DNA of 30,611 nucleotides from a virus: positions 1 through 30,611 of the IMG/VR virus record IMGVR_UViG_3300002144_000745. One strand, 5' to 3'. Position numbers and translations under genes: made by a program. Below are positions 4,350 to 30,610 of this stretch, piece after piece (the first letter of the stretch is position 1; every line of letters begins with the position of its first letter). The notes beneath the pieces are model-generated. The model worked only from the letters and a program-made list of their open reading frames with translations. It did no database searches and was not told where the DNA came from.

Positions 4350-6725
4350 ATGGCCTTATACAATGCAGATTTAAAACCGTTAGAGAATGGCACGACACAT
4401 TCATATGATCATGCCACGCGGCTATTCTTATCGGATAATTTTAGACTAGCACCCAAACAGTCGTTTTTATATTATGTTTGTATTAACGTAAATCAAGATG
4501 CGTTACAAAACATAATAGGCGGATTATCTAGCGATCCGGTCAGCAGCCAAACTTTAATCGAACAATATGAAACTGGCTTAATGGCCAAGCGAGTCGAGCT
4601 CCCCAGATTTAACGTACAGACTCGCAGTCTAAAAGCATATAACAGAAAAAACATATTTCAAACAGGTATCATGTATGATCCGCTGAGTATTACGTTTCAT
4701 GATGACGCTGCCGATACTGTGACTAAATTTTGGAATGATTTTTATACATACTATTATAGAGACAGTGACTATGATACCACTTTGTATACAGTACCGCATA
4801 AATATCAGTCCAGAACCAGAGAAGGCTGGGGATTTACACCACGCAATGGCAATCTAAAACCTTTCATCAGGGACATACAAATATTCAGTTTACACAATAA
4901 ACGTTTTACCGAATACCAATTGATTAATCCTGTTATCACCGCCTGGCGCCATGGCGAGCATGATAGTAGCGCCGGTAACGGCACGTTAGACAGCACAATG
5001 ACTGTGGATTTTGAAACAGTTAAATATCGCACAGGGTATGTAAATCCAGTTGATGTAAACGGCTTTGCTGTTATACATTACGATGATACACCTAGTCCTA
5101 TTAGTAACAGCACTACAAACATATTCACAGATGGCGGACTAATAGGTGCAATTGAAGGAACATCAACTGACTTGGCCAGACCCGATGGCACTGGCAGTGG
5201 TTCAGGAATTTTAAGTTCTATCTTAGATGCTTATCGTTTCTATAATAACATTAAAGATACTGATTTTAGACAAATCGGATCCATAGTATTAGGGCAAGTA
5301 GGAACGCAAATTTTAAATGGCGCAATAAATGGCGCAGTTAACAATGTATTCTTCCCCACATCTGGGTCAACGAGTCAGGTTTCCCCGCCAGCTGGTACAG
5401 TAGCACAGACATCATATGTAGCGCCAGGCAACAATGGGTCAGTAACAATTGGCGGAGTTGCAGCAGGAATAGCAACAGGTGTAGCAGCAAGTGTAGTTAA
5501 TAATGCAGTTAGCGCATTTTCTCAAGGTGTTAAAACGCAATCAGGTCCTCTGCCTAATCCCAGGTATAATACTGTATACCAGACCAGCAGCGGCACTCCT
5601 GCTATTTCTATAGATGCGCAAACTGGCCAACCAGTTACAAGTCAACAAACCGCATACCTTATAAATGCAACAACCGGCGAAATCGTATCTCAATTTCAAA
5701 CCGAAGGTACACAAAACGGTGGTTACTTAGGAGAAGGATCATTGACTACAAACTTGCAAAATTTAGTCAGTAGCACAGACCAAAATGGCAATGTGGTTAC
5801 TACCTACATTTATAACAACGGTGATCGGGCTTCGTTTGACGGCTTTGGTGCTCAATTATCGTTTGAGCCTGGCTCATTTACTAACCCATCAAATACAAAT
5901 ACAAATCCAACGACCCCACAGCAACTTGCTGCACAAGGACAAACCGTTAATACAAATCAAGTCCAGTATGCCGTTGACCCTACAACTGGATTAATTTACA
6001 CCGCAGGCGGCACAACCAGTGCATACGTGACTAATACACTGTCAGGCGTTGGTGGCGCTGTGGCAGGCGGCTACATCGGCAGTCGAGTATTCACTGGTTT
6101 GTCAGGTGTACTCGGAGATGGTGTTGTGGGGCAGACTGTAAGTGCAGCAGTAAGCGGCGTTGCAGGCGCAGTTGCTGGTCAAGCAGTGAATAATTTTTTA
6201 CAACCAATTGTCAACGGCGCAGTGGGCGGGGTAACTCAAGTGTTTGATAATGTCACGGGATCCATTAAAAACGTGGTAGGTAGTTGGTCTGGTAGTGGTG
6301 GATACGATTTTAATAATCCGCTTAATAACTCAGTTTCGCGAGTGTTTAACGGTGACGGCACAGAGACTCGCACCTTTAAAGATGGCAGTACTGGAATTTT
6401 CAGTGGCAAAGATCTTATATCATCCACTGCATCGACCGGCGGCGGCTTATTCAGCGGATTCGGCAACTGGTTTGGCGGCACAGCCGGAGCTAATTCCGAT
6501 AGTAGCATTTTAAACCCTGGGCGCGGAACTGGTTTGCTATTGGACGGATCCAGTAATCTGCTACAAGCTGATTCGGGTGGATTTGTGGTTTCTGGCGCCG
6601 GCGATACGTCATTGTTTGGTTCAATTTTTGGTACATCTTTATCCAAAGGCAGCGTATTTACTGCAGGTCCTGTGAATAATTTATATTCTTCCGGTAGTTA
6701 CGACGATAGTTTTTTCGTAGGTTAA
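4350..6725 (+). CDS. Tube-like/baseplate-region structural protein with long Gly/Ser/Ala-rich C terminus
   Basis: The first ~255 residues resemble the tube-fold family found beside gp19 in aquatic T4-like phages. Visible landmarks are THSYDHATRLFLSDNFRLAP, LPRFNVQTRSLKAYNRKN, ITFHDDAADTVTKFWNDFY, NPVITAWRHGEHD, and a closing VDFETVKYRTGYV. A role as tube initiator or baseplate-proximal tube element is inferred. Residues ~260-791 differ in character: low complexity, rich in Gly, Ser, Ala and Asn. They include two glycine-zipper-like hydrophobic runs (GGVAAGIATGVAASVV near residue 370 and GGAVAGGYIGSRVF near 570) and degenerate D.(Q/T)TG repeats. Total length is 791 aa. The start has no Shine-Dalgarno but a late promoter abuts it. 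The stop codon overlaps the next late promoter. Confidence 0.8.
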   Translation: MALYNADLKPLENGTTHSYDHATRLFLSDNFRLAPKQSFLYYVCINVNQDALQNIIGGLSSDPVSSQTLIEQYETGLMAKRVELPRFNVQTRSLKAYNRKNIFQTGIMYDPLSITFHDDAADTVTKFWNDFYTYYYRDSDYDTTLYTVPHKYQSRTREGWGFTPRNGNLKPFIRDIQIFSLHNKRFTEYQLINPVITAWRHGEHDSSAGNGTLDSTMTVDFETVKYRTGYVNPVDVNGFAVIHYDDTPSPISNSTTNIFTDGGLIGAIEGTSTDLARPDGTGSGSGILSSILDAYRFYNNIKDTDFRQIGSIVLGQVGTQILNGAINGAVNNVFFPTSGSTSQVSPPAGTVAQTSYVAPGNNGSVTIGGVAAGIATGVAASVVNNAVSAFSQGVKTQSGPLPNPRYNTVYQTSSGTPAISIDAQTGQPVTSQQTAYLINATTGEIVSQFQTEGTQNGGYLGEGSLTTNLQNLVSSTDQNGNVVTTYIYNNGDRASFDGFGAQLSFEPGSFTNPSNTNTNPTTPQQLAAQGQTVNTNQVQYAVDPTTGLIYTAGGTTSAYVTNTLSGVGGAVAGGYIGSRVFTGLSGVLGDGVVGQTVSAAVSGVAGAVAGQAVNNFLQPIVNGAVGGVTQVFDNVTGSIKNVVGSWSGSGGYDFNNPLNNSVSRVFNGDGTETRTFKDGSTGIFSGKDLISSTASTGGGLFSGFGNWFGGTAGANSDSSILNPGRGTGLLLDGSSNLLQADSGGFVVSGAGDTSLFGSIFGTSLSKGSVFTAGPVNNLYSSGSYDDSFFVG

Positions 6726-21726: not shown

Positions 21727-22179
21727 ATGTGGTACAACAAAGTAGTAGAAGACCTTGGTAATATACCTATGTTCATTAATTATTATGAAAATGAACTACA
21801 AGAAGCCAAATACGATTGCACAGTCAAAGGCAACTTGGAAAAAAATATTGCTTCTTTGCCTGGTTTAACAGAGCATAGATTTAACCAGCTTCAAGAGATT
21901 GAGGCTGTGTTAAACTATCTCAACATTCAACTGCGAAAGATACGCAGACGTCATTTTCAAAAGTATCTTGAAAACTATGCAAGAGCATTGACTAGTAGGG
22001 ATGCTGAAAAGTATGTAGATGGTGAGGACGAAGTTATTGACTTTGAAACTATTATTAACGAAGTGGCACTTGTTCGCAACAAGTGGCTGGGAGTATTAAA
22101 AGGTCTCGAAAGCAAAAACTTTATGCTGGGACATGTAACCAGACTCAGGTCTGCTGGCATGGAAGATGTCACTCTATAA
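21727..22179 (+). CDS. uvsY: UvsY-like recombination mediator
   Basis: This is a 150-aa helical protein, and T4 UvsY is 137 aa. UvsY helps UvsX displace gp32 from single-stranded DNA. The C-terminal block, with NKWLGVLKGLESKNFMLGHV then TRLRSAGMED, corresponds to the conserved oligomerisation end of UvsY-family proteins. RKIRRRHFQKYLENYARALTS supplies the basic DNA-binding helix. It sits three bases after the 75-aa gene in the uvsX operon, which supports the call. The stop codon is part of a perfect TATAAATA late promoter for the next gene. Confidence 0.85.
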   Translation: MWYNKVVEDLGNIPMFINYYENELQEAKYDCTVKGNLEKNIASLPGLTEHRFNQLQEIEAVLNYLNIQLRKIRRRHFQKYLENYARALTSRDAEKYVDGEDEVIDFETIINEVALVRNKWLGVLKGLESKNFMLGHVTRLRSAGMEDVTL

Positions 22180-22187
22180 ATATTTGC
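22175..22187 (+). promoter_or_regulatory. Perfect T4 late promoter, leaderless spacing
   Basis: TATAAATA (22175-22182) is the full T4 late consensus, followed by TTTGC and the ATG at 22188. It overlaps the uvsY stop codon. Confidence 0.75.
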
Positions 22188-22949
22188 ATGAAAACAATTG
22201 TAATTTGCACAGGGGGATATGACCCGATTCATTCCGGGCACATAGAATATTTTAAAGCAGCCCGAGCATTAGGTGATATGCTTATCGTTGGACTTAATAG
22301 TGATGACTGGTTGACTCGTAAAAAAAGCAGACCATTCATGAACTACGAAGAACGTTTTTTGATAACTGCAAATTTAAAAATGGTAGACAGTGTCATTGCC
22401 TACGACGACACTGATAACAGCAGTTGCGGCGCGATCGAGCGTGTTCTTGAAAAATATCCTGATGCAAAAATAATTTTTGCCAACGGAGGTGACCGGACAA
22501 AAGATAATATTCCAGAGATGAGAATAAAGTCAGACCGTCTAGAGTTTAAATTTGGAGTCGGTGGCACTAATAAAGCCAATTCTAGTAGTTGGATCTTAGA
22601 AGACTGGAAGGCTCCAAAGACAGTCAGACCCTGGGGATACTATCGGGTACTGCACGAAGTGCCGGGTATGAAAGTTAAAGAACTGACAGTGGACCCCGGA
22701 CAAAAACTCAGCATGCAACGACATGCCAATCGAGCAGAGTACTGGGTTGTCAGCGAAGGCTCCGGGGTAGTGTATAGCCAACTACCCAATGGGTACACTA
22801 TGCCTCCGACGGAGATAACCAAACATTCGGAAATTAAAATACCTGTAAGCGAATGGCATCAACTTTCAAATGAAGGAGAAATTCCGTTGAAAGTAGTAGA
22901 AATACAATACGGTAACAGGTGCGAAGAAGAAGATATCGAACGCAAATAA
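22188..22949 (+). CDS. Nucleotidyltransferase-cupin fusion (cytidylyltransferase + sugar-phosphate isomerase-like cupin)
   Basis: This is a 253-aa fusion. Residues 1-~135 are a nucleotidyltransferase of the RfaE/TagD cytidylyltransferase superfamily: GGYDPIHSGHIEYFKAAR with HSGH at 15-18, and RPFMNYEERFLITANL. Residues ~145-250 are a cupin like the C-terminal domain of ManC-type mannose-phosphate enzymes: RPWGYYRVLHE, SMQRHANRAEYWVVSEG (H179 and E184 as metal ligands), and EWHQLSN (H224). Together they suggest activation or rearrangement of a sugar-phosphate. The target could be host surface glycan or a virion glycan, which I cannot tell. The frame is open to 22083, but the late promoter fixes the start at 22188. 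A terminator follows. Confidence 0.88.
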   Translation: MKTIVICTGGYDPIHSGHIEYFKAARALGDMLIVGLNSDDWLTRKKSRPFMNYEERFLITANLKMVDSVIAYDDTDNSSCGAIERVLEKYPDAKIIFANGGDRTKDNIPEMRIKSDRLEFKFGVGGTNKANSSSWILEDWKAPKTVRPWGYYRVLHEVPGMKVKELTVDPGQKLSMQRHANRAEYWVVSEGSGVVYSQLPNGYTMPPTEITKHSEIKIPVSEWHQLSNEGEIPLKVVEIQYGNRCEEEDIERK

Positions 22950-25160: not shown

Positions 25161-25178
25161 CCAGCGATACTATTGAAT

Positions 25179-26249
25179 ATGAAATTAACACCTATTCAAA
25201 ATTTTTCAAATCTTGGGGTATATGTTGACGACTTGGATTTTCAAAATTTAAGTGTAGAGCAATGGGTTGATTTAAAAAATCAACTATATTCTAAATACCT
25301 GTTGATTATTTTTAGAAATGCAAACTTACCGTTAACTGATTATGCAACTAGGATGTCGCAGTGGGGCCAGCATTCCAACGGTCTTAAATACTTCTTTAAA
25401 AAGTATAATCTACCTGCTGCTGAATTTTATTTGAAATTTTCCGAAGGTAATCTGTTGCCACTTTACCGTCATCTATACGATATGGCAGACAAATATAATA
25501 TTTCATTTGATGATTTAGATATTATTGAAAACAGTATAGGAAAAATTGACAAATTATCAGATTCTGATAGTAACCTCATAGTCAACAGGCTTAAAGGTGC
25601 AACTGAAACAAATGAGCCGCGCGATACTAATACAGTATTTCTCGACGGTGAGCTTGCTTGGCATAGCGACGAGAGCATGGATCTTGCGTTTTGTGATACC
25701 ATTGGATTGTATGGAAATAACGCAATGACTGCCAGTGCCACGGGCTTCGTCACTACCAGTGGGTGGTATGAAAGCCAATCTAATAGTTTTAGATCTGAGT
25801 TGGATTCGATGATTGCAAAACACAAATATCAACCAACTAAATTCAATAAAAATCAAGATCCTTTAGAGGAACGAATAATAGCCTGCCAAAATGGATCAGA
25901 TACCGAAATTCCATTGGTTATTAACAGTCCTGGCGGATTTACTGGCTTACATTATCCATTGAATAGCGTTGTTGGAATTGTCGGCATGTCCGAATCAGAC
26001 TCGCGTTCTCTTTTTAACTATATTAATAAAACATTATTTGTCGAAGAGAATATGTATGATCATTGGTACCAACAAGATAACGACTTGGTATTGTTTGATA
26101 ATTCGATAACATTGCATAGAAGATTAGGCAGTACAATTAATCGTGTGGCCTATCGAACCGCATGGTATCTACATGAGCCGACAGCTGATAGATATTTTCA
26201 GCCAGAGTATCAAGAAAAATATCAATTTATATTGTCTGAGTATAATTAA
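25179..26249 (+). CDS. TauD/TfdA-type 2OG-Fe(II) dioxygenase
   Basis: This 356-aa enzyme is related to taurine dioxygenase. The motif WHSDESMD gives the iron ligands H162 and D164. The distal ligand H313 lies in SITLHRRLGSTI, and R326 in RVAYRTAWYLHE would bind 2-oxoglutarate. The long spacing between HxD and the last His is typical of TauD-like proteins and differs from the small oxygenase at 14343. The substrate is unknown; members in phages have been seen but not explained as far as I know. The frame also opens with TTG at 25173, but the ATG at 25179 is preferred. It is the last gene before the tRNA region. Confidence 0.85.
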   Translation: MKLTPIQNFSNLGVYVDDLDFQNLSVEQWVDLKNQLYSKYLLIIFRNANLPLTDYATRMSQWGQHSNGLKYFFKKYNLPAAEFYLKFSEGNLLPLYRHLYDMADKYNISFDDLDIIENSIGKIDKLSDSDSNLIVNRLKGATETNEPRDTNTVFLDGELAWHSDESMDLAFCDTIGLYGNNAMTASATGFVTTSGWYESQSNSFRSELDSMIAKHKYQPTKFNKNQDPLEERIIACQNGSDTEIPLVINSPGGFTGLHYPLNSVVGIVGMSESDSRSLFNYINKTLFVEENMYDHWYQQDNDLVLFDNSITLHRRLGSTINRVAYRTAWYLHEPTADRYFQPEYQEKYQFILSEYN

Positions 26250-26304: not shown

Positions 26305-26379
26305 GCGCCTGTAGCTCAGAGGAAGAGCAAGCGACTCATAATCGCTGGGTCGGGATTTCGAAACTCTCCGGGCGCACCA
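26305..26379 (+). tRNA. tRNA-Met/Ile2 (CAT)
   Basis: The acceptor pair GCGCCTG/CGGGCGC is followed by A-CCA encoded in the DNA. The anticodon arm AGCGA-CTCATAA-TCGCT gives CAT. Whether it is elongator Met or lysidine-modified Ile cannot be told by eye. A second CAT tRNA lies at 30192, so one of the two may be Ile. The T-stem has a mismatch. Confidence 0.85.
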
Positions 26380-26391
26380 AATAATTATTAG

Positions 26392-26420
26392 TTGACAATA
26401 AATTGATTTTTTGTTATACT
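26392..26420 (+). promoter_or_regulatory. Sigma70-type promoter between tRNAs
   Basis: TTGACA (26392-26397), a 17-bp spacer and TATACT (26415-26420) lie 20 bases before tRNA-Leu. Confidence 0.8.
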
Positions 26421-26439
26421 ATGGCATAGTAAGAAATTT

Positions 26440-26524
26440 GCTCGAGTGATGGAACGGTATACATAACAGACTTAAAATTTGTCGCCGAAATGGCTTGTGG
26501 GTTCGAATCCCACCTCGAGTACCA
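26440..26524 (+). tRNA. tRNA-Leu (TAA)
   Basis: The acceptor pair GCTCGAG/CTCGAGT is followed by encoded ACCA. The anticodon arm ACAGA-CTTAAAA-TTTGT gives TAA. A long variable arm (class II) and T-loop TTCGAAT are present. Confidence 0.92.
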
Positions 26525-26545
26525 ATAATTTTAATTTAATGTCCG

Positions 26546-27289
26546 ATGCTAAAAGAACAAGTAACATGGGTGCATCACTGGAGCGATAGAACTTTTAGTT
26601 TTAAAACCACAAGGAGTCAGAGCTTCAAGTTCTATGCAGGAGAGTTTGTCATGATTGGCTTAACAGTCGATGGTAAAAACATTCTTCGTGCATACAGCGT
26701 GGTGAGCCCGCCATGGAGTGAAGAGTTGGAATTTTTAAGTATTAAAATTCCCAACGGCGCATTGACAAGTCAGCTGCAACATATTGTAGTAGGTGATGAA
26801 GTTGTGATTGCACCCAAGTCCACTGGCACGTTGAGAAACGATGCACTGCTTAAAGGTGGTGAACTATGGTTACTGTCAACAGGCACCGGACTTGCGCCTT
26901 TTATGAGCTTGATTAGAGATTTAGAAACACTGGAAACCTGGAGTAAGATCCATGTTGTACACAGTGTAAGACACAGTAAGGATTTAGCCTACTACGCAGA
27001 CTTGTCAACAGCATTTAAAGACCATCCTCAAGATGGCGATCTGCATGACATGGTTGCAGCAGTGTTAGACTATAAAACTATCCTTACGGGTAGAGGAGAC
27101 AGACGTATTACAACTCAGTTGGCGATAGGTGAGATGCCAATCGATGTAGTACGGGACAAAGTCATGCTGTGTGGTAACATGGAGTTTAACCAACAGGTTG
27201 CTGGCTGGTGCGAACATCATGGCATGAAAGAAGGAAGTTTACGAGAGCCTGGGCAATATATAATTGAACGGGCATTTGTAGACAAATAG
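26546..27289 (+). CDS. fpr: Ferredoxin-NADP+ reductase (Fpr-type)
   Basis: This 247-aa FAD enzyme passes electrons between NADPH and ferredoxin or flavodoxin. The full length is close to bacterial Fpr (about 257 aa). FAD-binding RAYSVVSP (48-54) comes first, then LEFLSIKIPNGALTSQLQ. The NADP-binding part has LLSTGTGLAPFMSLIRD (109-125) and MLCGN. The C terminus EPGQYIIERAFVDK is diagnostic for proteobacterial Fpr (Azotobacter/Pseudomonas type, from memory). It sits between tRNA-Leu (21 bases upstream) and tRNA-Arg (17 bases downstream), and has no clear ribosome-binding site. This looks like a host gene picked up together with tRNA genes. It could supply electrons to iron-sulfur enzymes such as the radical SAM protein (inference). 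Confidence 0.92.
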   Translation: MLKEQVTWVHHWSDRTFSFKTTRSQSFKFYAGEFVMIGLTVDGKNILRAYSVVSPPWSEELEFLSIKIPNGALTSQLQHIVVGDEVVIAPKSTGTLRNDALLKGGELWLLSTGTGLAPFMSLIRDLETLETWSKIHVVHSVRHSKDLAYYADLSTAFKDHPQDGDLHDMVAAVLDYKTILTGRGDRRITTQLAIGEMPIDVVRDKVMLCGNMEFNQQVAGWCEHHGMKEGSLREPGQYIIERAFVDK

Positions 27290-27306
27290 GTAACTTGACA
27301 TATTTT

Positions 27307-27381
27307 CTGGCGTTCGTATAGTGGACAATACAGGGAGCTTCTACCTCCTAAACGTGGGTTCGATTCCTGCACGCCGGACCA
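27307..27381 (+). tRNA. tRNA-Arg (TCT)
   Basis: The acceptor pair CTGGCGT/ACGCCGG is followed by encoded ACCA. The anticodon arm GGGAG-CTTCTAC-CTCCT gives TCT. The T-loop is TTCGATT. Confidence 0.88.
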
Positions 27382-27393
27382 TTTAAATTGAGC

Positions 27394-27422
27394 TTGACAA
27401 AAAAAGATAAATAAACTACAAT
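27394..27422 (+). promoter_or_regulatory. Sigma70-type promoter overlapping a late-type core
   Basis: TTGACA (27394-27399), a 17-bp spacer and TACAAT (27417-27422). The spacer contains TAAATA (27408-27413), seven bases before the ATG at 27421. Host-type transcription would start near 27429 and end at the terminator near 27619, giving an RNA of about 190 nt. Confidence 0.75.
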
Positions 27423-27561
27423 GATAAACATGATGACATTAATGAAAACAACGAACGCAACAGCTAGGCATGATATGCCCGGTCGCGGCTATTCGAATGA
27501 TTCCATTAATAGTCAGCCAGAGGGAAAGTTTAGTAGGGTCCAGAAGGACAGGGATGTGTAA
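27421..27561 (+). CDS. Possible 46-aa protein, or non-coding RNA segment
   Basis: This 46-codon frame (begins MINMMTLMKTTNATARHDMP, ends VQKDRDV) has no Shine-Dalgarno. However, TAAATA lies seven bases before its ATG, as at the leaderless late genes. If transcription starts from the sigma70 promoter (about 27429), the first ATG is lost and internal ATGs at 27430, 27433 or 27442 would be needed. The same segment contains hairpin GGCAT/ATGCC and an ATTAATG/CATTAAT pair, so it may be an RNA gene instead. I recognise no family. Confidence 0.35.
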   Translation: MINMMTLMKTTNATARHDMPGRGYSNDSINSQPEGKFSRVQKDRDV

Positions 27562-27591
27562 GTAAACAACTTAACATCGCAAACTTCAAGG

Positions 27592-27619
27592 ACCCTGGAC
27601 TAAACACCCAGGGTTTTTT
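27592..27619 (+). terminator. Rho-independent terminator
   Basis: The stem ACCCTGG (27592-27598) / CCAGGGT (27608-27614) encloses a nine-base loop, followed by TTTTT. It ends the RNA driven by the promoter at 27394. Confidence 0.9.
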
Positions 27620-27639
27620 GTTTTTGAAACAGTGTGAAG

Positions 27640-27860
27640 TATACCAGTAACGAGGACTGGGCAGTGCACTTTAAACATGCTGCAAACGGGCGGACTAGTG
27701 GATGGCTTATCCTTTTGTGGATAAAAAAATACTAGTTATTAAAACACACTGTATCACAGGATCGTGCATTGGTAGTTCAAGCAGGGGAAATGACGCAGTG
27801 TGTTTTAATAAGCACTTTGAGCTGGCGCGGGCTGTGATGCCGCAGACAGAGTGTTAACAA
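27640..27860 (+). ncRNA. Run of stem-loops without ORF, candidate structured RNA
   Basis: This gene-free stretch is packed with pairings. CCAGT/ACTGG closes a 7-nt loop (27644-27660). GCAG/CTGC lies at 27661-27683. A TTATCC/GGATAA hairpin (27707-27724) is nested within ACTAGT/ACTAGT (27694-27736). A perfect 16-bp stem TTATTAAAACACACTG / CAGTGTGTTTTAATAA (27736-27751 and 27796-27811) encloses 44 nt. A GCACT/AGTGT stem (27812-27854) carries an inner GGC/GCC hairpin. T4 encodes two stable RNAs of unknown role in its tRNA cluster (RNA C and D), and this may be comparable. No recognised family. Confidence 0.5.
27736..27811 (+). repeat. Perfect 16-bp inverted repeat around a 44-nt loop
   Basis: The arms at 27736-27751 and 27796-27811 are exact reverse complements. 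The loop includes TGC-ATTGGTAGTTCAA-GCA, which looks like a tRNA D-arm. Confidence 0.9.
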
Positions 27861-27865
27861 TTTAT

Positions 27866-27941
27866 CTCCTATTGGGCTAGCGGCTATGCCTCCTTGTTTG
27901 GAACGAGGAAATCGAAGGTTCGAGTCCTTCATGGGAGACCA
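27866..27941 (+). tRNA. tRNA-Pro (TGG)
   Basis: The acceptor pair CTCCTAT/ATGGGAG is followed by encoded ACCA. The anticodon loop TTTGGAA within CCTTG/CGAGG gives TGG. The T-loop is TTCGAGT. Confidence 0.9.
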
Positions 27942-27954
27942 GTTTTGGTATTAT

Positions 27955-28029
27955 GCATCGTTAGCTCAGTGGTAGAGCGTCTCGTTTACACCGAGAGGGT
28001 CGGCAGTTCGAAACTGTCACGATGTACCA
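27955..28029 (+). tRNA. tRNA-Val (TAC)
   Basis: The acceptor pair GCATCGT/ACGATGT is followed by encoded ACCA. The D-arm is GCTCAGTGGTAGAGC. The anticodon arm TCTCG-TTTACAC-CGAGA gives TAC. Confidence 0.93.
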
Positions 28030-28035
28030 ATCAAT

Positions 28036-28127
28036 GGAAGATGATGCAGCGGGGATGGTCCTGCGACCAGCCTTGAAAACTGGGTTCCGAGAAATCGGAT
28101 GGGGTTCGACTCCTCCGTCTTCCGCCA
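28036..28127 (+). tRNA. tRNA-Ser (TGA)
   Basis: The acceptor pair GGAAGAT/GTCTTCC is followed by GCCA. The anticodon loop CTTGAAA gives TGA. A long variable arm CCGA-GAAA-TCGG marks a class II tRNA. One pair in the anticodon stem is mismatched (C/A). Confidence 0.88.
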
Positions 28128-28138
28128 CTAACTCATAG

Positions 28139-28167
28139 TTGACGCAAATTAGCGTTGACTATACAAT
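28139..28167 (+). promoter_or_regulatory. Sigma70-type promoter before the small basic ORF and tRNA-Lys
   Basis: TTGACG (28139-28144), a 17-bp spacer and TACAAT (28162-28167). The predicted start is near 28174, 19 bases before the ATG at 28193. Confidence 0.75.
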
Positions 28168-28192
28168 ATAGTTTCAACACAAGGAGACAACG

Positions 28193-28387
28193 ATGAAACG
28201 AAAACAAACTGCTAAGGAACGCAACCAGTTCGTTGCCTTAGCATTATTTAGAAAAGCTGGCAGTCACGCTAAGAGTACCAAAGCTCTGCGTAGACAAGAA
28301 AAATCAAGGAATCGTAGCTCAATGGTAGAGCAAGACGCTTTTAACGTCGAGGTTCAGAGTTCAAATCTCTGCGGTTCCACCATATAA
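28193..28387 (+). CDS. Small basic protein ORF running into tRNA-Lys
   Basis: AAGGAG seven bases upstream gives this ATG an excellent ribosome-binding site, behind its own promoter. The first ~38 residues (MKRKQTAKERNQFVALALFR then KAGSHAKSTKALRRQEK) look like a genuine small, very basic protein. From memory they resemble short Lys/Arg-rich proteins of proteobacteria. There is no stop before tRNA-Lys begins at 28308. The frame continues through the tRNA and stops at 28385-28387 (64 aa). Residues beyond ~39 are only translated tRNA sequence. After RNase P cuts at 28308 the message would lack a stop codon. The function is unknown; nucleic-acid or ribosome binding fits the charge. Confidence 0.6.
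   Translation: MKRKQTAKERNQFVALALFRKAGSHAKSTKALRRQEKSRNRSSMVEQDAFNVEVQSSNLCGSTI
28308..28382 (+). tRNA. tRNA-Lys (TTT)
   Basis: The acceptor pair GGAATCG/CGGTTCC is followed by encoded ACCA. The D-arm is GCTCAATGGTAGAGC. The anticodon loop CTTTTAA gives TTT. The T-arm is CAGAGTTCAAATCTCTG. It lies inside the reading frame that starts at 28193. Confidence 0.93.
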
Positions 28388-28455
28388 AAGCACATATTCC
28401 TCAATCTGGATCCGCTATGCCGAAAGGTGCGAGGACAATGTGTGCTTCTATATGG
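28383..28455 (+). ncRNA. Candidate structured RNA hairpin next to tRNA-Lys
   Basis: TATA-A-AAGCACA at the left pairs with TGTGCTT-C-TATA at the right (about 28383-28395 and 28441-28453). A second stem TCCTC/GAGGA lies inside, and then GCC-GAAA-GGT with a GNRA tetraloop. The nested stems give an extended ~70-nt hairpin. It matches no RNA family I recognise, and it could be a processing signal or a stable RNA. Confidence 0.45.
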
Positions 28456-28520
28456 TGAGGCCACCAACGCAGTGCGCAATCAAAAAGTTATTTGCGAGTA
28501 ATTGGCTGGCTATATAATGT

Positions 28521-30074
28521 ATGAGACATCTTTTTCTGTTATTATTTCCATTTTTAGTCAGTTGTTCTGGTTCTAGTGTACAAACCACAGTTAATATTGA
28601 TCAATATGATCAGTGGGCCAGCGGACTAAACCAGCGTAACTATCAAAGTACACCAGGTAGTATCTATCTATTTGTTAACAGTGATTGCCAGGCTTTCATT
28701 GATGTGTTTGGTACCTGTTTTGATAACAATGCCACAGCACCATATATTATACCTCAGTTACCAGTTGGTACAACATACTTAGATCCTAACTATGCTACAC
28801 TGGATAAATGCGCGCCTTGCAACGGTGTTAACCAATTTGGTCAGCAGACTAACATATCAAATCGACTTAGCAATACAGATGCGTTAGTCACTGTGGTAAA
28901 ATTTCCTCCCAAGGCAGCATATTTTGGATATCAAAGTTATGTGTTTACTACATTAAAGTCTAATTATAATACTAATATACCCAAGTTAAGACTACCTAGT
29001 CCCAATGAAACCCGTTGGGAAATATTTGGCAGCATAGGCAATGACGTTAATAACATCATAGTAGAAAATCAGATGGGCGATCCATGGCACGGTTCTATTG
29101 TGATGTACATAACAACAGTAAACTCAACGTTGGCAAACAGCATTAAACAAGATGCTATTAGTCAAGGTATACCGGGTAATTCTATTTTTGTTGAAGCTAT
29201 AGGTGATAATGTCAAGAACGGAACAGACAGTAGTTCAGATGATTTAATTACGTTGATTCGGTACGCAGTCCCTAAAGATGCAGATCAAGGACAAGAATGG
29301 TTGCAGGATGTTGGCAAAAACATTATTGTTTACCGTGTGTCCGCAAATGACAGTACTGTAACCAGATATGTAAAAAATGAATATACCAGACGTACTGGTA
29401 ATATTGAGTTACAATTACAAGAACCATTGAACGAACTAGCGGGTATTTTACAATTGTGGTTTATAAATCAAGGACAGATCAATTCTTCAGTTGATGTAAT
29501 GGGCCGAACCACTGTCGACATTGATGGGATACCCAGAGGGCTTATTGGGGGAGACTGTATCGACAAAGGAACTATTTGTGCAGGTGACAATGCAGACACC
29601 AGCACTTATGCTCATTCGCGTAAGTTTCAATTGACAACAATGCCTGCATTTGTTGCGGGTATAAATCATAATCGTTTAAAAAATGCAAGTTATATTAGTT
29701 TGAGTGTGTATAACATTGACCAAGGTCAAGGTGTAGCAAGTTCATCAGAAACTGACATGGACGCTGTGGGATTTAATAGTGGTACGTTAGATGATTCGGC
29801 CGAGGCAGTTTTAAAAGAATTAGGCTTGTACGAAAAAGCCAGCAACTCGCTTAAACTGGTATTACCTAAAATGTATGTGTCGTTGGTATCGCGCCAATGT
29901 GACATCGCCGAGCAGTATTGTATAGATTTGCAGGGTACTAGTTTGATACCGTTAGAATCAAATATTAATGTTGATGAACGTAGTTATATTAATCCGGGTA
30001 CTACCACAGGAGCAAACTCTAATACAATGGTATATCCTCGTGTTATTATTGCAACAGATTTCCCGACAAAATAA
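28521..30074 (+). CDS. Predicted large phage-encoded lipoprotein
   Basis: This is a 517-aa protein. The N terminus MRHLFLLLFPFLVSCSGSS is a short signal peptide with lipobox LVSC, predicting cleavage before C15 and lipid attachment in a bacterial envelope. The mature part is rich in Asn, Ser and Thr and holds several Cys (DCQAF, GTCFDN, KCAPCNG, GGDCID, TICAGD, RQCDIAEQYCID) that could form disulfides in the periplasm. No enzymatic family is recognised. Small phage lipoproteins block superinfection by hiding receptors or DNA-entry proteins. A role of that kind is possible but this one is far larger. It lacks a Shine-Dalgarno and sits between the two tRNA clusters. Confidence 0.75.
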   Translation: MRHLFLLLFPFLVSCSGSSVQTTVNIDQYDQWASGLNQRNYQSTPGSIYLFVNSDCQAFIDVFGTCFDNNATAPYIIPQLPVGTTYLDPNYATLDKCAPCNGVNQFGQQTNISNRLSNTDALVTVVKFPPKAAYFGYQSYVFTTLKSNYNTNIPKLRLPSPNETRWEIFGSIGNDVNNIIVENQMGDPWHGSIVMYITTVNSTLANSIKQDAISQGIPGNSIFVEAIGDNVKNGTDSSSDDLITLIRYAVPKDADQGQEWLQDVGKNIIVYRVSANDSTVTRYVKNEYTRRTGNIELQLQEPLNELAGILQLWFINQGQINSSVDVMGRTTVDIDGIPRGLIGGDCIDKGTICAGDNADTSTYAHSRKFQLTTMPAFVAGINHNRLKNASYISLSVYNIDQGQGVASSSETDMDAVGFNSGTLDDSAEAVLKELGLYEKASNSLKLVLPKMYVSLVSRQCDIAEQYCIDLQGTSLIPLESNINVDERSYINPGTTTGANSNTMVYPRVIIATDFPTK

Positions 30075-30077
30075 TAG

Positions 30078-30106
30078 TTGACGAATAATACAAATATTAT
30101 TGTAAT
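30078..30106 (+). promoter_or_regulatory. Sigma70-type promoter for second tRNA cluster
   Basis: TTGACG (30078-30083), a 17-bp spacer and TGTAAT (30101-30106) lie four bases after the lipoprotein gene and upstream of five tRNAs. Confidence 0.65.
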
Positions 30107-30191
30107 TAATACTTAGACAGCAGCAAACGATAGAGCAGTTGCAACAAGTTAAGAAATATATATTCCCGAAGCATAAAGTGTGTTTCAATAT

Positions 30192-30266
30192 GGTAAAGTA
30201 GCATAATGGTTGTGCGCCTCCTTCATACGGAGTCCGGTGTAAGTTCGAATCTTACCTTTACCACCA
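30192..30266 (+). tRNA. tRNA-Met/Ile2 (CAT), second copy
   Basis: The acceptor pair GGTAAAG/CTTTACC is followed by encoded ACCA. The anticodon loop TTCATAC gives CAT. The T-arm is GTAAGTTCGAATCTTAC. The sequence differs from the first CAT tRNA at 26305, so the two probably have different identities. Confidence 0.88.
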
Positions 30267-30291
30267 AGTTACAAAGTAAAAACAAGATACT

Positions 30292-30365
30292 GGGTTGTTC
30301 GTCCAATGGTAGGATTCTGGTCTCCAACACCAGCGATTGCGGTTCGAGCCCGTAACAACTCACCA
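30292..30365 (+). tRNA. tRNA-Trp (CCA)
   Basis: The acceptor pair GGGTTGT/ACAACTC is followed by encoded ACCA. The anticodon arm CTGGT-CTCCAAC-ACCAG gives CCA. Confidence 0.9.
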
Positions 30366-30369
30366 ATAT

Positions 30370-30447
30370 GTACACGTGGCAGAGAGGCCCAATGCACTGG
30401 ATTGCAAATCCAAATAACCGTCAGTTCAAATCTGACCGTGTACTCCA
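30370..30447 (+). tRNA. tRNA-Cys (GCA)
   Basis: The acceptor pair GTACACG/CGTGTAC is followed by TCCA. The anticodon loop TTGCAAA gives GCA. The T-arm GTCAG-TTCAAAT-CTGAC is perfect. Confidence 0.88.
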
Positions 30448-30452
30448 AATTT

Positions 30453-30529
30453 GCCCCTGTAGCTCAACTGGACAGAGTGTCGGTCTTCGAAACCGCGGGT
30501 TGGGAGTTCGAATCTCTCCGGGGGCACCA
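30453..30529 (+). tRNA. tRNA-Arg (TCG)
   Basis: The acceptor pair GCCCCTG/CGGGGGC is followed by encoded ACCA. The anticodon loop CTTCGAA within CGGT/ACCG gives TCG. It is a second Arg isoacceptor besides TCT. Confidence 0.9.
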
Positions 30530-30535
30530 GGTTAT

Positions 30536-30610
30536 GGAGTTTGTGATGTAATGGTAGCATCAGAGATTGTGATTCTCTTCGCGTGGGTTCGATTCCCATC
30601 ATTCTCCCCA
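30536..30610 (+). tRNA. tRNA-His (GTG)
   Basis: The anticodon arm AGAGA-TTGTGAT-TCTCT gives GTG. The extra 5' G (30536) faces discriminator C (30607), which is the hallmark of tRNA-His, and CCA follows. Two T/T mismatches occur in the middle of the acceptor stem (30540/30603 and 30541/30602). Confidence 0.85.

Follow-up and report, generated by a model that had tools for sequence, protein, structure and literature searches.

A large predicted lipoprotein of a very large phage belongs to an unnamed bacterial family of exported proteins

Results and discussion

The lipoprotein gene and its surroundings

What does a very large phage do with a lipoprotein of 517 residues? The gene that raises this question lies in a stretch of 30,611 bases (an IMG/VR virus record and part of a full genome), referred to here as the window. 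Genes for tail sheath, tail tubes, head closure, terminase, and UvsX in the window mark a T4-like phage, and its UvsX is closest (60–69%) to those of very large phages such as Atu_ph07, CBB, GAP32, and Munch; judged from these sequences, the source is a very large tailed phage, Rak2/Atu_ph07-like. Just after an ordinary tail tube gene, the window also encodes a 791-aa protein (4350–6725) with a tail-tube-like first part (PHROG) and a long glycine-rich extension. Eleven tRNA genes within 4.3 kb (26305–30610) are interleaved with a reductase-like gene and the lipoprotein gene, and this tRNA-rich stretch is a cargo region. The features discussed below are the following, where P0001 denotes the lipoprotein.

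25173–26249: TauD/TfdA-family dioxygenase (PF02668), TTG start as listed, just before the tRNA/cargo stretch
26546–27289: ferredoxin-NADP reductase-like gene, without PHROG match
28308–28382, + strand: tRNA-Lys, directly 5' of the lipoprotein gene
28508–28524, + strand: GGCTATATAATGTATGA, identical around the lipoprotein start codon in this and a second phage
28521–30074, + strand: lipoprotein gene (P0001), an ORF of 517 aa plus stop with known full-length relatives
28521–28565, + strand: signal peptide MRHLFLLLFPFLVSC, predicted from pattern and conservation, last residue the lipobox Cys15
28521–29420, + strand: N-terminal mixed alpha/beta region with the signal peptide, residues 1–300, border approximate
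29421–30071, + strand: C-terminal beta-sandwich-like region, residues 301–517, from the predicted model and conservation
30192–30266, + strand: tRNA-Met, 3' of the lipoprotein gene and the first of five tRNAs to the window end

The large ORF noted in a preliminary description of this DNA is real: it begins with ATG at 28521, and an in-frame TAA two codons 5' of this codon makes it the earliest start the ORF can have. The 17 bases of GGCTATATAATGTATGA that span the gene start occur once in the window and are inferred to be a promoter-like or translation-start element. No clear Shine-Dalgarno sequence was found at the gene start, T4-type late promoters (TATAAATA) showed no enrichment across the window (71 versus 62 expected), and a sigma-70 promoter scan gave a result near chance. 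Host assignment through the reductase-like cargo gene failed, as many Pseudomonadota have proteins ~50% identical to its product.

A short signal peptide with a lipobox

The first 15 residues of P0001 constitute a short signal peptide, MRHLFLLLFPFLVSC, whose last four residues are the lipobox L-V-S-C. Of shuffled versions of the first 45 residues, 0.01% (~1 in 10,000) passed a rule combining the lipobox with a hydrophobic core, as did 0.05% of random draws from the composition of P0001. The lipobox is also retained in the second phage copy (MKHLLLLLLPLLVSC). The earlier proposal of an LVSC lipobox and an envelope anchor is thus supported at the level of sequence, with a type II signal found by both pattern and conservation. 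By the textbook rule, serine at position +2 of a lipoprotein predicts sorting to the outer membrane; P0001 has serine immediately after Cys15 and is most likely an outer-membrane-anchored lipoprotein.

Read by eye, nearly all complete relatives (described below) carry an export signal. Those of beta-, zeta-, campylo-, and actinobacterial origin have a lipobox, and the alphaproteobacterial and Nevskia sequences have an ordinary cleavable-type signal instead. On these alignments the lipid anchor is common in the family but not universal, and the anchor may therefore not matter for the chemistry of the protein.

Conserved cysteines and polar residues

P0001 contains nine cysteines (residues 15, 56, 66, 97, 100, 346, 353, 460, and 467), or 1.7% of residues, and asparagine, serine, and threonine together make up 24.7%. 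The description of the protein as Cys-rich with several cysteine pairs holds for the pairs and overstates the abundance. Pairs 56/66, 346/353, and 460/467 are retained in nearly all family members covering those positions; the full pair 97/100 is confined to the phage copies.

About 15 polar residues are near-invariant: N69, N70, R115, D120, Y134, Q138, R165, N177, E225, R247, E296, D356, D359, Y363, R487, and Y489. Their conservation suggests a binding or catalytic site. Motifs of the N-terminal region are NN69-70, RL115-116, DA120-121, PP129-130, and Y134-x-[GS]-x-[QR]138; the C-terminal region holds Cys pairs 346/353 and 460/467 together with invariant D359, Y363, S426, R487, and Y489.

A widespread but patchy bacterial family

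Sequence searches of Pfam, PHROGs, NCBIfam, PADLOC, and the PDB with P0001 gave no match, nor did comparison with 50,697 annotated phage records, and an exact 8-mer scan of genome contigs found no relative. A tblastn search of plasmids returned one end-to-end relative, protein P0002 of Streptomyces sp. HUAS 15-9 (residues 36–512, 25%, E 7e-23). A degenerate motif built from these two proteins, DA..x5PPxxxYx[GS]xQ[ST], was then looked for in 84,980 genomes and yielded 17 loci, all of which encode the family as judged by tblastn with either protein; complete members aligned across most of their length with E values of 2e-163 to 8e-26. P0001 carries the family core motif DAx[IV]x5PPxxxYx[GS]x[QR] along with the three retained Cys pairs.

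The closest relatives, two near-identical copies in Neisseriales/Burkholderiales MAGs (L008/L009), share 55% identity with P0001 over residues 29–509. Less similar copies occur in a Pseudoxanthobacter-named MAG (46%), Xanthobacteraceae and Sulfurovum (~40%), a Zetaproteobacterium (39%), Nevskia (31%), and streptomycetes (25%), and a Chloroflexi MAG holds two distant copies. Full-length bacterial relatives thus occur in at least three phyla and distant ones in a fourth, with several copies on long contigs or beside ordinary chromosomal genes. Neighbors of the bacterial copies showed no common theme. Directly upstream of the Xanthobacteraceae relative lies a co-oriented gene (contig L015, 6259–6984, − strand) whose 241-aa product is probably exported, fits no known family, and is a possible partner.

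Whole genomes were sampled from the Pseudomonadota (2 carriers among 398), the taxonomic families of the Neisseriales MAG (2 of 23) and Sulfurovum (1 of 150), the phylum of the Chloroflexi MAG (1 of 201), and the class to which the Xanthobacteraceae MAG belongs (1 of 289); all carriers were seed genomes. The protein family is widespread yet very patchy, as expected of a horizontally moving accessory gene. We conclude with near certainty that P0001 is a member of this unnamed bacterial family of exported proteins (for example, WP_263217204.1), with which it shares end-to-end homology, Cys pairs, motifs, and an export signal; the family has copies in bacterial genomes, whereas the phage copies add Cys pair 97/100 and have a shorter signal peptide. 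The family is absent from the curated databases Pfam, NCBIfam, and PHROGs.

A second phage copy and the origin of the gene

One further viral contig carries the gene: IMGVR_UViG_3300021961_005311 (L001), of 7.6 kb. Scans of viral contigs with P0001, family profiles, and motifs found no other. The second copy is 87% identical over about 161–163 residues, the contig ending after 161 residues. Upstream of the gene, the contig has UvsX (83%), several other genes common to the window, and tRNAs; the TauD-like and reductase-like cargo genes are absent from the corresponding interval. Over 161 codons, dN/dS between the two phage copies is 0.07 (NG86) or 0.14 (YN00), and 59 of the 83 differences fall at third codon positions, showing, on these partial sequences, that the lipoprotein gene is under purifying selection in two related phages.

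In the family tree, the phage pair is sister to the Neisseriales/Burkholderiales pair (100/100) within the Pseudomonadota sequences; several other branches are long and unsure, and this join is not among them. This nesting indicates that the phage gene is most likely a captured bacterial gene, and the branch leading to the phage pair is long (0.58), implying that the actual donor is not among the sampled sequences. Its simplest interpretation, in which we are confident, is one capture from a proteobacterium that preceded the divergence of the two phages. Reverse transfer, from phage to bacterium, is less likely, the bacterial sequences being far more diverse. Phages often carry captured host genes; a captured 517-residue envelope lipoprotein from a family missing in the curated databases, kept in two of them, is uncommon.

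Two other genes of the window have a counterpart or a similar-looking gene on this contig. The gene at 22083–22949 joins a cytidylyltransferase-like domain to a cupin of the mannose-6-phosphate-isomerase type (by Pfam, in the window copy); its product, possibly a sugar-nucleotide enzyme, has a counterpart at L001 3043–3807, and a radical-SAM protein (PF04055; 16288–17331) is similar in kind, by eye only, to the product of L001 98–1243.

A predicted fold like that of DUF1254/DUF1214 proteins

AlphaFold2 was run twice, on 15 and on 18 sequences, and produced models of mean pLDDT 71.1 and 73.7; the better one is middling, with residues 331–345 under 50. After re-alignment, the same four PDB chains stood apart in both runs: 6ans, 3u07, 3vb9, and 2p3y, with Z scores of 10.9, 9.6, 8.1, and 7.9 in the first (next 5.7) and 13.5, 10.2, 9.7, and 9.5 in the second (next 6.1). 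The matches span about residues 43–514, and 6ans aligns over 248 residues at 3.7 Å. To identify these chains, we gathered and aligned DUF1254 proteins of the same genomes, and the resulting DUF1254/1214 profile, run against the whole PDB, retrieved exactly these four.

In sequence, no link between the two groups was found. Neither P0001 nor any of 15 family members gave a Pfam match to DUF1254/DUF1214 at E values up to 10, hhalign of the family against DUF1254/1214 returned a probability of 0.1% (E 0.79), and motifs of the collected DUF1254 proteins (WS..Y, NWLP, R.Y.P) are missing from P0001. DUF1254/DUF1214 proteins (PF06863/PF06742; 6ans, 3u07, 2p3y, 3vb9) thus share the overall fold of the predicted model (residues 44–513) but have sequence motifs and a Pfam signature of their own. 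Since the absent Pfam match and the hhalign result allow classification by fold only, we file P0001 as folding like DUF1254/DUF1214, according to the model, and not as a member. The preliminary view that the protein has no known domain accordingly stands for sequence and is revised for predicted fold, and its implication of a phage-specific protein is contradicted by the full-length bacterial relatives, the nesting of the phage copy in a proteobacterial branch, and this DUF1254/DUF1214-like predicted fold. At low Z, the C-terminal half also resembles capsid proteins, galectins, and glycan-binding modules, similarities that we do not read as kinship.

Foldseek added two predicted structures from giant viruses, Terrestrivirus A0A3G4ZK60 (E 2e-18) and A0A5J6VH68 from a Megaviridae sample (E 1e-14). 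These match P0001 at TM about 0.4–0.55, with 15% identity in the structural alignment; they are uncharacterized and come from viruses of eukaryotes. A motif shaped on the Chloroflexi copies had no match in viral contigs, leaving structure as the sole basis of this putative kinship. The literature found on DUF1254/DUF1214 establishes no function; a fungal DUF1214 protein has been modeled as a jelly-roll hydrolase, with a proposed role in cell-wall glucan (PMC4634964). P0001 thus offers a defined, testable entry to a fold with four solved structures and no function established in the literature found.

Proposed role and alternatives

As a considered guess by analogy, we tentatively favor an envelope-facing binding protein or enzyme that would alter the envelope of the infected cell. 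During infection, the Sec and lipoprotein machinery of the host would very probably export P0001 and acylate it at Cys15, Lol sorting (serine at +2) would place it on the outer membrane, and pairs 56/66, 346/353, and 460/467 would form periplasmic disulfides in a mature protein expected, from the model, to fold like DUF1254/DUF1214 proteins. More speculatively, N69, N70, R115, D120, Y134, Q138, E225, R247, E296, D356, D359, Y363, R487, and Y489 could together make up a ligand-binding or catalytic site. Its ligand would most plausibly be an envelope glycan or other envelope polymer; this enzyme or glycan step draws on fold analogy and conservation only. The phage might thereby change the surface that other phages see, or alternatively prepare the cell to support its own growth or release. 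Of the roles suggested in the preliminary description (receptor masking, altered adhesion, lysis), none is singled out by these findings.

One way in which an envelope change could possibly pay is the exclusion of other phages. A narrower proposal is superinfection exclusion in the manner of T5 Llp, with P0001 at the outer membrane blocking the receptor of the phage and its relatives; this is the best-known job of phage lipoproteins (PMC9586334). We consider it rather unlikely, even though the signal peptide, the lipobox, and purifying selection in two phages would suit it. The relatives known for P0001 are envelope proteins of bacteria, encoded outside phage contexts, which argues against a pure Llp-type receptor plug, and the invariant polar core points to a conserved chemistry or ligand in place of a receptor-specific plug. 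Like P0001, T5 Llp and TP-J34 Ltp are phage-encoded and have a signal peptide II, but Llp and its kind are far smaller (small meaning under about 150 aa); the contrast with small exclusion lipoproteins drawn at the outset is borne out at 517 aa, and no Llp-, Ltp-, or Cor-type entry appeared among the PDB sequence and fold matches. Similarly doubtful is an auxiliary metabolic or stress gene that restores or boosts an envelope or nutrient function of the host. P0001 shares the cargo region between tRNAs with the TauD-type dioxygenase and ferredoxin-NADP reductase-like genes, and its relatives are bacterial and rarely present, as niche functions would be; yet it is linked to no pathway, and the second contig has the lipoprotein without either cargo gene in the matching interval.

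Two other readings are considerably less probable. A lysis or release factor that attacks the envelope at a late stage of infection, in the manner of spanin lipoproteins, would agree with the outer-membrane prediction, but spanin lipoproteins are small, bacterial carriers retain the gene, and no holin, endolysin, or spanin partner was recognized beside P0001 in this partial phage genome. A virion structural protein whose N terminus merely resembles a signal peptide is the least credible: structural genes do occur in the same window, and the beta-sandwich region resembles many capsid and fiber domains at low Z, but the bacterial relatives have export signals, the second phage keeps the lipobox, and the gene sits among tRNAs, away from the structural block.

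Returning to the favored envelope-altering protein, a broader and rather unlikely extension is that an ancient superfamily of exported proteins with the DUF1254/DUF1214 fold, nameless in Pfam, NCBIfam, and PHROGs, circulates among bacteria of several phyla, very large tailed phages, and giant viruses of eukaryotes, and that in phages it would represent an undescribed class of large enzymatic envelope-remodeling or exclusion lipoproteins. P0001 offers a way into the question of how the host surface is remodeled by very large phages.
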